A DNA stretch of 64,000 nt from Acinetobacter tandoii DSM 14970 = CIP 107469 (lineage in GTDB: Bacteria > Pseudomonadota > Gammaproteobacteria > Pseudomonadales > Moraxellaceae). Below are positions 34,760 through 38,397 of the stretch, piece by piece (positions within the stretch are counted from its first letter, which is position 1; the number at the start of each line of letters is the position of its first letter). Under the pieces are notes generated by a model. It was not told the DNA's origin, did no database searches, and was given only the letters and a program-made list of their open reading frames with translations. The position numbers and the translations under genes are program-made. The DNA lies in assembly GCF_000400735.1 (NCBI RefSeq), contig NZ_KE007367.1, forward strand, positions 300,672-364,671, given 5' to 3'.

Positions 34760-36649
34760 TTGAAAGAAATAGGTGGCTTTTTGATCAAAAATAAAAATAT
34801 GATGTGGACTGCCAGTATTTGTGCTTTGGCTGTTCTTTTGACTATGTTTATTCTCAATACTGTTTTGGGGCTTTTGGTTTATTATTTTGATCAATCACAA
34901 TCTATTTTTTGGCATCAGCTTAGTCCCTACGTCATTATTTTACTGTTACTGATTATTGGCTCGTCTATTCTGTATGAATTTTATGTGTTTCGTTCAGGTG
35001 GACACTCGCTGGCAAAACAATTACGTGCAAGAAGACTGAGTCTGATAGAAAGCACTCCAGAAGAATTTATTGCACTAAAGATTACAGAGCAACTTTCTGA
35101 GCGTTTCCTTATTGATACACCAGCTGTATATGTGTTGCCTGATGAAGTTGGGGTGAATGCACTTACAGCAGGCTTTTTGCCTCGTGATATCGCGATTATT
35201 CTGACTTGGGGGGCTTTACAAAACTTAGATGAATCTGAGTTATTTGGTTTGTTAAGCCATGAGTTTAATCAAATTTTATCTGGGGAAACTGCGGACAACA
35301 CCCGTCTAAAAATTTTATACAGTGGCTTAACCACTTTTAGTCAGTGGGGGAGTAAGGTTGCGAAATTAGGCTTTAGTCGTCGTGGATATAATCAACCCCA
35401 GAAGTTCGAAACTATTTTAGTGGCATTGGGTGGTGTCATTTGGTTGGCAGGAAGTTTGGGTGTCTTAATCACACGATTTATTAAGTATTTAACTTTAGGT
35501 AGTCGTACCTTTAGAAATGATTTGAAAACCAAGCGACTGATTCAAAATAGCGCCAATATCCAGACGCTTTTACGTATTTATGTTCATCATGCAGGCTCGC
35601 AAATTCATAGTGAATATTCTGAATCAATTTCACATATGTGTTTTGCTAATTCACTAAGTCCGCAAAGTTGGATGAATATTCATCCAAGTATTGAGCAGCG
35701 GATTTATGAAATGAATCCTGGGTTGGTGCAGGATTTACAGCTAGAAAATCTAAAAAGATTAAAAAATCAGCCCTTATTTGGTTTGTTTCGCCCGTTAGAA
35801 GAAACTAATGCTGAATACCATACGCCTTGGAGTTCACCTCAGCCTTTGCCTCTCTTGCGTTTATCTCCCATTAGTTTCGCTATTAAAGATGCAATCAAGC
35901 CGTTGAATCCCGAAGTGCGGAGCTCTATGCAGCGTCCAGAGTTGATTGAGCGAGCGTTACAAACAGCGACAGGCTCACGTGAGGTGATGGTTGCGATTCT
36001 CATGATTCGTCAATATCGCGAGTTTATTCCAGCCGAAGCAGAAGTCAGCCGTGCAATTATTGAAGCATTGCTTCATTTGGATGGACGTGTGCATTTATCT
36101 ATTTTTCATGAAGCATGTGCTAATATTGGTGGAATGCCAGCGACTATTGCTCGTCAATTTGTCACTAAGTTGGCACTCATTATTCAAGAAGATGGCGAGA
36201 TTGGACTATTAGATGCATTATTACTTGAGCGGGTAAAATATGAACTAAACTTATTGCCTGCGCATACTCCAACAGCTTTAGATGAAGTGAAGCCGCAAAT
36301 TGTTCGTTTGATTGATGCCTTGCTGCACGTGCAGCAGATTAATAGTGATAACCAGCTTACTGTTCGTGAGCGTATATTAAAAAAAATCCTGACGGTAGAT
36401 GAGCTTGATATCTACGAAGAAATATCTGATGAGCCGATTGATCTTGCAGAAATCGTGCATGATATTTCGGGATTGCTTTTGCGTGATCGCCTAATTATTT
36501 TGGGAATAGCAGAATTATGTCTTTGGAATGATCGTATTATTACCCAAGATGAATTGGATGTTTTAGAATTATTATATTGGCGTTTTGGCTTTGAAACTGC
36601 AGAAATCGTTGAGCAAATGCAAAAGAAAAATAGTTTAATGATTATGTGA
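34760..36649 (+). CDS. Large membrane protein with degenerate M48 peptidase-like motif
   Basis: A 629-residue protein starting at a TTG with AAAGG nine bases upstream. Two hydrophobic helices (about residues 14-37 and 53-75) are followed by an HtpX-like region: DTPAVYVLPDEVGVNALTAG, then GLLSHEFNQILSGETAD. The zinc motif that would be HExxH reads HEFNQ (His167, Glu168, Gln171), so one metal ligand is lost. The C-terminal half is helical, and the last 60 residues (AELCLWNDRIITQDELDVLELLYWRF) recall TerB/DjlA-like acidic domains. It is probably a pseudo-peptidase or scaffold; function unknown. Confidence 0.7.
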   Translation: MKEIGGFLIKNKNMMWTASICALAVLLTMFILNTVLGLLVYYFDQSQSIFWHQLSPYVIILLLLIIGSSILYEFYVFRSGGHSLAKQLRARRLSLIESTPEEFIALKITEQLSERFLIDTPAVYVLPDEVGVNALTAGFLPRDIAIILTWGALQNLDESELFGLLSHEFNQILSGETADNTRLKILYSGLTTFSQWGSKVAKLGFSRRGYNQPQKFETILVALGGVIWLAGSLGVLITRFIKYLTLGSRTFRNDLKTKRLIQNSANIQTLLRIYVHHAGSQIHSEYSESISHMCFANSLSPQSWMNIHPSIEQRIYEMNPGLVQDLQLENLKRLKNQPLFGLFRPLEETNAEYHTPWSSPQPLPLLRLSPISFAIKDAIKPLNPEVRSSMQRPELIERALQTATGSREVMVAILMIRQYREFIPAEAEVSRAIIEALLHLDGRVHLSIFHEACANIGGMPATIARQFVTKLALIIQEDGEIGLLDALLLERVKYELNLLPAHTPTALDEVKPQIVRLIDALLHVQQINSDNQLTVRERILKKILTVDELDIYEEISDEPIDLAEIVHDISGLLLRDRLIILGIAELCLWNDRIITQDELDVLELLYWRFGFETAEIVEQMQKKNSLMIM

Positions 36650-36746: not shown

Positions 36747-37439
36747 ATGTTGAACACAGGCATGATGGGGCATCAGCGAGATATATTGGCAACGATGGGA
36801 ATCGATATCTGGATTCCTAATCATAGCGTTCGCGTGCAGCAAACTCAGCCATCTTCTTTGTGGCGTGATCAGGCTTTACCAGAAGTAATGGTAGAACTGC
36901 CTCAAAACCAGATTGAGGTCCCAGCTTTTAGTCCACCAGATATTCGTGAAATTGATTCGACATTAACTCAGTTTGTTGAAACTGAAAAAGAAAGTCGCCA
37001 TCAAAATACTCAGGTTGTCTCAATTGAACCGTTAGAAGCTGTTCCTCAAGCTGCGATTCAGATTGAGGCATTTGAGTTGCAGGCGATCAGTTCAGCATCA
37101 TGCTTGATTGTGGTAGATGCTTCTACTTTAAGCGAGTCGCAAGTAGAATTATGGTTAAATATACAACGTGCCATACCCACCGAATATCATGAGTTGAAAT
37201 GGCCATTTCCGTTAGCTGAAATGCAAGATGGCCGTGGAGCATCCAGTTATGTTCAGGGATTTATTGATGGTATGGGGGTAGACAAAGATCTGATTGCATT
37301 GGGAGAGATACCTCATTTACAACAAGTAGATCTGCATCAATTGGCGAGTTTGCAAGAAATGCTTGATCAGCCAATTTTGAAAAAACGTTTGTGGCAGTTT
37401 ACGCAAAAATCACTCAATACACGGATGACTGATGAATAA
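36747..37439 (+). CDS. Probable DNA polymerase III psi subunit (HolD-like)
   Basis: A 230-residue protein without strong database-type motifs. The N-terminus (QRDILATMGIDIWIPNHSV) resembles the clamp-loader psi peptide pattern, a short helix plus GIxxW. The middle is an acidic, Gln/Pro-rich linker (about 40-115), and the C-terminal domain (SCLIVVDAS, HELKWPFPLAE, SSYVQGFIDGMG) has the layout of the pseudomonad psi protein. Psi binds chi and the gamma/tau complex. The start is uncertain: Met6 or Met7 are alternatives and no good ribosome site is seen. It overlaps the next gene by 8 bases. The assignment is inference. Confidence 0.5.
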   Translation: MLNTGMMGHQRDILATMGIDIWIPNHSVRVQQTQPSSLWRDQALPEVMVELPQNQIEVPAFSPPDIREIDSTLTQFVETEKESRHQNTQVVSIEPLEAVPQAAIQIEAFELQAISSASCLIVVDASTLSESQVELWLNIQRAIPTEYHELKWPFPLAEMQDGRGASSYVQGFIDGMGVDKDLIALGEIPHLQQVDLHQLASLQEMLDQPILKKRLWQFTQKSLNTRMTDE

Positions 37440-38397
37440 AAAAGTTGTTGTTTTTAGCCAAATTGACCCTGAAATCTTAACTCGCTTAAAAGCACAATAC
37501 CATGTTGTGGTTATAGACCCTAAACAGGGTGATGTGAATCAACAAATTCAACAGCATGTTCAAGATGCGGACGGTATGATTGGTGCGGGTCGATTGCTCA
37601 ATCAAAGTAATTTGGCGACAGCGCAACAGCTCAAGATTATTTCAAGTGTTAGTGTTGGTTATGATAACTACGATGTAGATTATCTGAATCAAAAAAATAT
37701 TTGGTTAAGTCATACACCACATGTATTAACAGAAACTACCGCCGATTTGGCATTTACCTTGCTCATGAGTGCAGCACGTAAAGTACCATATTTAGACCAT
37801 TGGACTAAAAGTGGTGAATGGAAGCGTACAGTATCACAAGCGCAGTTTGGTCAAGACATTCATGGGAAAACTTTAGGAATTATTGGTTTAGGTAATATTG
37901 GAGCAGCAATCGCTCGTCGTGGTTTATATGGCTTTAATATGAATATTTTGTACCATAATCGTCGCGAAAAATTAGAAATGGCACAGCCACTCAATGCACA
38001 ATACCGTTCTTTAGAGCAACTGTTGCAAGAGTCGGATTTTGTGGTGGTTGCAGTTGATCTGAATGCTGAATCAAAAGCCTTACTTTCTACCGAGCAGTTT
38101 GATTTAATGCAATCGCATGCGGTGTTTGTGAATATCGCGCGTGGTTCAGTGATTGATGAGCAAGCATTAATTCAAGCATTGAAAGATCATAAATTTTTTG
38201 CTGCGGGTTTGGATGTTTACGAGAAAGAACCACTTCAAACGTCTGAACTGTTTCAGTTAGACAATGTGGTGACATTGCCACATGTAGGTTCTGCAACAGC
38301 AGAGACGCGGAAGAAAATGGCTGAGCTTGCTTATCGTAATTTAGTCGATGCTTTAGATGGACGTCAACCACGCTATTTGGTGAATCCTGACTTTTAA
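37432..38397 (+). CDS. D-2-hydroxyacid dehydrogenase (glyoxylate/hydroxypyruvate reductase type)
   Basis: A 321-residue NAD(P)H-dependent reductase. The nucleotide-binding motif GIIGLGNIGAAIARR, the catalytic Arg in NIARGSVIDE, Glu in DVYEKEPL and His in LPHVGSAT are all present. The substrate is probably glyoxylate, hydroxypyruvate or 2-ketogluconate (GhrB-like), but members of this family are hard to separate by sequence. It overlaps the upstream psi candidate by 8 bases, implying co-expression. Confidence 0.9.
   Translation: MNKKVVVFSQIDPEILTRLKAQYHVVVIDPKQGDVNQQIQQHVQDADGMIGAGRLLNQSNLATAQQLKIISSVSVGYDNYDVDYLNQKNIWLSHTPHVLTETTADLAFTLLMSAARKVPYLDHWTKSGEWKRTVSQAQFGQDIHGKTLGIIGLGNIGAAIARRGLYGFNMNILYHNRREKLEMAQPLNAQYRSLEQLLQESDFVVVAVDLNAESKALLSTEQFDLMQSHAVFVNIARGSVIDEQALIQALKDHKFFAAGLDVYEKEPLQTSELFQLDNVVTLPHVGSATAETRKKMAELAYRNLVDALDGRQPRYLVNPDF

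Follow-up and report, generated by a model that had tools for sequence, protein, structure and literature searches.

Does the reading frame at 36747..37439 of the Acinetobacter tandoii window (the whole 64,000-nucleotide stretch of DNA that was analysed) encode the psi subunit of DNA polymerase III, and if it does, why do ordinary searches pass it by? The first-pass annotation had proposed a cryptic psi from an N-terminal peptide, an acidic/Pro/Gln linker and a C-terminal domain with CLIVVDAS and YVQGFIDGM. All of these elements are present, the peptide at residues 11-22 (RDILATMGIDIW, 36777-36812), the linker at residues 42-100 and the two motifs of the domain at residues 119-126 (37101-37124) and 168-176 (37248-37274). 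We are highly confident that the frame is holD and that its product is a long, pseudomonad-like psi subunit of the clamp loader, because homology is found at both ends of the protein, the gene is single copy and conserved throughout the genus, and chi is encoded in the same genome. The features discussed here are the following.

34760..36649, plus strand: upstream neighbour, an HtpX/M48-like membrane protein of 629 aa (PF01435, 22.6 bits against a cut-off of 20.3)
36747..37439, plus strand: psi ORF (HolD), 230 aa; probable true start ATG 36762 (225 aa)
36774..36815, plus strand: N-terminal peptide QRDILATMGIDIWI, aligned to the tau/gamma-binding N-terminus of psi; putatively binding, by homology
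36870..37046, plus strand: variable acidic/Pro/Gln linker, predicted to be disordered on the sole basis of composition
37047..37436, plus strand: C-terminal domain with profile matches to psi; presumptively chi-binding
37432..38397, plus strand: overlapping neighbour, a D-isomer 2-hydroxyacid dehydrogenase (PF02826, E=1.2e-56)

The psi ORF is a real gene. A single-sequence search, asked at E<=1, matched it in 172 of 175 Acinetobacter genomes (weakest genome row 4.8e-7), and one further genome, 99% complete, was recovered by profile (E=7.6e-6). Two genomes that are 64-65% complete gave no match even by profile, and among near-complete genomes of the genus the gene is found in 169 of 169. All 10 named matched loci belong to Acinetobacter, and the nearest, at 80% identity, is that of Acinetobacter sp. 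ANC 4173. The silence of Pfam, NCBIfam and PDB sequences would suit a chance open frame, but conservation on this scale, together with dN/dS values of 0.13-0.15 against four relatives (L002, L003, L004, L031), refutes that explanation, the probability of which is effectively nil. The start codon is a separate matter. Three in-frame ATGs, at 36747, 36762 and 36765, compete within 36747-36767, and relatives point to the second of them. Since these relatives (L005, L011, L019, L022, L026 and L028 among them) carry an upstream stop just 2-3 codons before the codon equivalent to ATG 36762, translation probably begins there and yields a product of 225 rather than 230 aa.

Direct searches do not name the protein. 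PF03603, the Pfam model of psi, has no match in the A. tandoii genome, NCBIfam leaves the single protein unnamed, and the single sequence matches no PDB chain. Searching the PDB at E<=10, profile A2 retrieved four chains, none of them psi, and profile A3 retrieved none. The PHROGs offered nothing usable for the single protein, and a scan of viral contigs with profile A2 found no relative. No unrelated family makes a better candidate than psi: a Pfam scan at E<=1 gives a single row, IPK (E=0.13), whose 12.6 bits fall short of the 22.2 cut-off. We attribute this row to chance, as we do the matches to phrog_18578 (E=0.011) and, with profile A2, to UvrA (E=0.11). The missing PF03603 match says little, because the model passes its own cut-off in just 12 of 229 genomes of the class and 3 of 244 genomes of the order. 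AlphaFold2 models, built on alignments of 11 sequences each, reached a mean pLDDT of 36 for the whole protein and 48 for the C-terminal domain, too low for a usable model, and a fold search with the latter, to which we give no weight as evidence, had no psi among the 50 rows listed (best E 0.46).

The identification comes instead from comparing profiles with profiles. The first-pass annotation had proposed a comparison with pseudomonad psi; in place of that named protein we used psi genes of the class and the order found with PF03603, plus E. coli HolD, and the result supports psi. An alignment of 45 Acinetobacter sequences, from which L025 was excluded (its frame had been lost in extraction), was compared by hhalign with each set of psi, and the figures given here are those of one-to-one comparisons, not of a database search. 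Of 30 class loci from the PF03603 scan (L042-L071), nine were taken as psi (eight over the cut-off, plus L070), 12 were assigned to a uracil-DNA glycosylase (UDG) type and nine were left out, among them L059, which looks UDG-type, and L050, for which the wrong frame had been picked. Ten order loci were chosen by match place and frame length from the same kind of scan (L133-L162), with L145 trimmed to its C-terminal part; those passed over were six Moraxellaceae repeats, repeats of frames already in the set, and others.

Against the nine class psi the Acinetobacter alignment scores 97.9% (score 86, 89 columns). The 10 long order psi, retrieved by PF03603 but not by the Acinetobacter profile, give 99.1% over 119 columns, a value that has no shuffle control of its own. 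The two ends of the protein match psi separately: the N-terminal 36 columns reach 95.2% over 25 columns of the class psi (50 column shuffles <=4.8%) and the C-terminal 130 residues 97.1% over 96 columns (50 shuffles <=1.0%). The C-terminal domain also matches the order psi, at 98.0% over 119 columns. Control values are low throughout, with 60 column shuffles (3 x 20) of the whole protein at <=2.9%, three reversed alignments at <=0.46% and 200 column shuffles (4 x 50) of its parts at <=4.8%. The linker columns match nothing in any of the five sets tested (0.01-0.02%); this segment is weakly conserved in profile A2, and its residues 42-100 are 19% D+E, 22% P+Q and 5% K+R. Compared with E. coli psi as a single sequence, neither the whole protein (1.6%) nor its N-terminus (17%) nor its C-terminus (1.4%) is significant, and the short alignments fall at the expected spots, L..MGI..W on L..LGI..W and P.....LW on P.....LW.

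The comparison also works in the other direction. A psi profile of 20 rows was built from E. coli HolD and 19 sequences found with PF03603, leaving out Moraxellaceae and anything that the Acinetobacter profile had retrieved. We searched all six frames of the A. tandoii genome with it. Seven candidates passed the first filter and one match remained at E<=10, the psi ORF itself (E=0.0098). A second psi elsewhere in the genome was found neither by this profile nor by PF03603, and chi is present once.

It could be argued that only the N-terminal, clamp-loader-binding peptide is psi-like and that the C-terminal domain has another, non-psi role. A peptide of this kind is indeed found joined to a different domain, given that all 10 of the scanned class proteins of the UDG type combine a strong UDG domain with a PF03603-like N-terminus, and the structure models (pLDDT 36 and 48) are uninformative on the point. 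Yet the C-terminal domain of the Acinetobacter protein, taken alone, matches psi at the 97.1% and 96 columns given above and hardly matches the UDG set (5.0%, 20 columns), and where PF03603 detects Moraxellaceae proteins it does so in this same domain. We therefore regard a psi-like peptide on an unrelated domain as quite unlikely.

The Moraxellaceae matches come from a bridge between Acinetobacter and recognised psi. Of nine listed non-Acinetobacter genomes of the family, seven contain a frame of 280-306 aa that the Acinetobacter profile matches (E 2.1e-14 to 4.7e-7), and two have no match. Five of these bridge proteins were scanned with Pfam: three, all of one genus, exceed the PF03603 cut-off of 22.2 (31.7, 26.0 and 24.5 bits), one matches at E=0.027 and one has no match. 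The PF03603 matches of the four Moraxellaceae proteins that have one, at profile positions 38-126 (of 127), fall within the C-terminal domain. Across the order, the Acinetobacter profile and PF03603 meet on the same frame in 15 of 244 genomes, six of them Moraxellaceae, with E<=1 as the limit for either search.

The place of the gene was the other part of the proposal, which had the ORF overlapping a 2-hydroxyacid dehydrogenase and not rimI, and this description is borne out. The dehydrogenase starts at 37432, ahead of the end of the psi ORF at 37439, so the two genes overlap by eight bases. The best rimI match of the genome lies on contig C15 and the window on contig C16, and within the stretch examined a RimI-like frame accompanies none of 14 Acinetobacter loci and none of seven other Moraxellaceae loci. 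Outside the family, where the company of rimI is the classical though not a defining setting of holD, such a frame is present in 10 of 10 chosen order loci and eight of nine class loci found with PF03603. It is also present in 17 of 17 kept non-Moraxellaceae loci found via the Acinetobacter profile, many of those matches being weak (E up to 0.055). These 17 remain from 22 loci fetched (L110, L111, L113-L132) after near copies of L116 and L129 (L117 and L130) and three loci for which the wrong frame had been picked (L114, L121, L126) were dropped. Because a RimI-like frame shares the locus with psi outside Moraxellaceae and is absent from all 14 and seven loci inside, psi seems, judging from gene order, to have moved away from rimI in this family.

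Could the ORF instead be an unrelated protein with a functional link to the overlapping dehydrogenase or to the upstream HtpX-like protein? The eight-base overlap would fit such a link, as would the persistence of both neighbours in genome G289, which we take to be A. baumannii ATCC 19606, and, within the stretch covered, at L096. Against it, the downstream gene differs from that of Acinetobacter in seven of seven other Moraxellaceae loci while the psi features persist, and in the distant Acinetobacter loci L099 and L100 the upstream gene is LeuA-like, the dehydrogenase still following psi in L099. A role tied to these neighbours is thus very improbable, and we retain the psi reading.

Several details of these neighbourhoods deserve mention in their own right. 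The upstream 629-aa protein reaches 47 bits with the best HtpX model, against a cut-off of 355. Its gene lies between psi and a gene on its far side that is presumably purF, and its place is unchanged in G289. At L099 and L100 the LeuA-like gene stands upstream of the psi orthologue instead of the HtpX-like gene; it was named via its N-terminal motif. In the other Moraxellaceae loci (L104-L109 and L112) no RimI-like frame lies near the psi relative, and the gene that follows it, starting NFCAGPA or NFSAGPA, is assumed to be serC.

The set of class loci yielded a further observation, which a specialist might find the surprising part of this work. At 12 loci of Gammaproteobacteria (L051-L053, L056, L058, L061, L063-L065, L067-L069) a UDG-superfamily domain stands behind a psi-like N-terminal peptide. 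In each of the 10 proteins scanned, PF03167 scores 118-143 bits and PF03603 matches the N-terminus, over its cut-off in two of the 10. All 12 sequences keep the G and W of the N-terminal motif and three cysteine columns, and a fourth cysteine is shared by 11. Such cysteines hold the iron-sulphur cluster in family 4 UDG. A RimI-like frame is found at 10 of the 12 loci, and chi in 12 of 12 of these genomes (15 of 15 when three Moraxellaceae genomes are included). Hhalign pairs the long psi with the UDG set at 99.2% (135 columns), a figure that has no shuffle control of its own; the Acinetobacter protein reaches only 51% over 23 columns, and a Pfam scan of the psi ORF gave no UDG row at E<=1.

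The UDG-type protein may be a psi that still acts as a repair enzyme, or an ancestor of psi. We tentatively propose, at somewhat less than an even chance, that psi is a decayed uracil-DNA glycosylase: in some Gammaproteobacteria an apparently intact UDG beside rimI, with four conserved cysteines and a psi-like clamp-loader-binding peptide in front, would tether uracil repair to the replisome, the long psi would retain the fold but not the enzymatic activity, and at the far, relocated end of the series would stand the Acinetobacter protein. A literature search for psi together with uracil-DNA glycosylase found nothing within its partial coverage, and the likeness may be noted elsewhere.

How the A. 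tandoii protein would act can be envisioned from known psi. Excerpts of PMC3290774 and PMC3197488 describe the psi N-terminus as binding tau domain III, psi as binding chi and chi as binding the SSB tail. By analogy, the N-terminal peptide would attach psi to tau/gamma in the clamp loader, the variable linker would provide a flexible tether and the C-terminal domain would hold chi. With chi bound to the SSB tail, psi would link the loading of clamps and the handover of primers to the lagging strand coated with SSB.

An assignment of this kind is already in print, and our finding confirms it: the reading is right, and it is not new. The excerpts of PMC11975115 (PLoS Genet 2025) name A. baumannii GO593_00140 as a possible HolD. 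They report that 48% of the protein can be modelled by Phyre2 on a HolD-like domain, that AlphaFold2 gives a heterodimer with chi (S7 Fig legend) and that its knockdown phenotypes resemble those of other polymerase III subunits and link it to replication genes. They also cite Robinson et al. 2010, likewise cited in the excerpts of PMC3290774, for an earlier HMM-based prediction of psi in other Acinetobacter species. The word cryptic in the first-pass annotation accordingly holds for ordinary searches, with Pfam, NCBIfam and PDB sequences silent, and does not hold for the literature. As a discovery the result is modest, since the assignment had been published; its value is that several sequence tests fill the place of psi in the Acinetobacter replisome and show why annotation misses it.

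Gene order suggests that the published gene and ours correspond. When frames of 60 aa or more are counted from the contig start in G289, the orthologue of the psi ORF comes 27th, and it is again number 27 when four spurious-looking frames (of which two lie antisense to tRNA genes) are subtracted and four tRNAs added; GO593_00140 is expected at position 28, if its tags step by five. Provided that G289 is ATCC 19606, the orthologue of the window gene thus lies no more than one gene away from the place of GO593_00140. The HtpX-like neighbour does not fit the description given in the excerpts of PMC11975115.

Related work bears on the importance of the gene. In its excerpted text, PMC3290774 describes A. 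baylyi holD as an essential gene whose psi product far exceeds that of E. coli in length. Table 1 of the same source, in its excerpted form, marks HolD 'D', which may mean dispensable and would then possibly be at odds with its text. For P. aeruginosa, excerpts of PMC8879598 state that holD is on the essential-gene lists of transposon projects and that its depletion slows growth strongly.

Among known systems, the closest likeness is to GO593_00140 of a different species, A. baumannii, where a long unstructured N-terminal part precedes a HolD-like domain, as in the psi ORF. P. aeruginosa psi, as described in the excerpts of PMC3197488, similarly places a long, unstructured N-terminal part before a core like that of E. 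coli psi. Its N-terminus is reported there to bind ssDNA, whereas the extension of the psi ORF, although present, is acidic. Because the first 100 residues carry a net charge of -8, we doubt that the Acinetobacter protein binds ssDNA through its N-terminus as pseudomonad psi does. E. coli psi (HolD, b4372) has 137 aa, lacks the long linker, is encoded by a gene that overlaps rimI and shows no significant single-sequence similarity to the psi ORF. The two proteins nonetheless present their short motifs in the same order, L..LGI..W and then P.....LW in E. coli, L..MGI..W and then P.....LW in A. tandoii.
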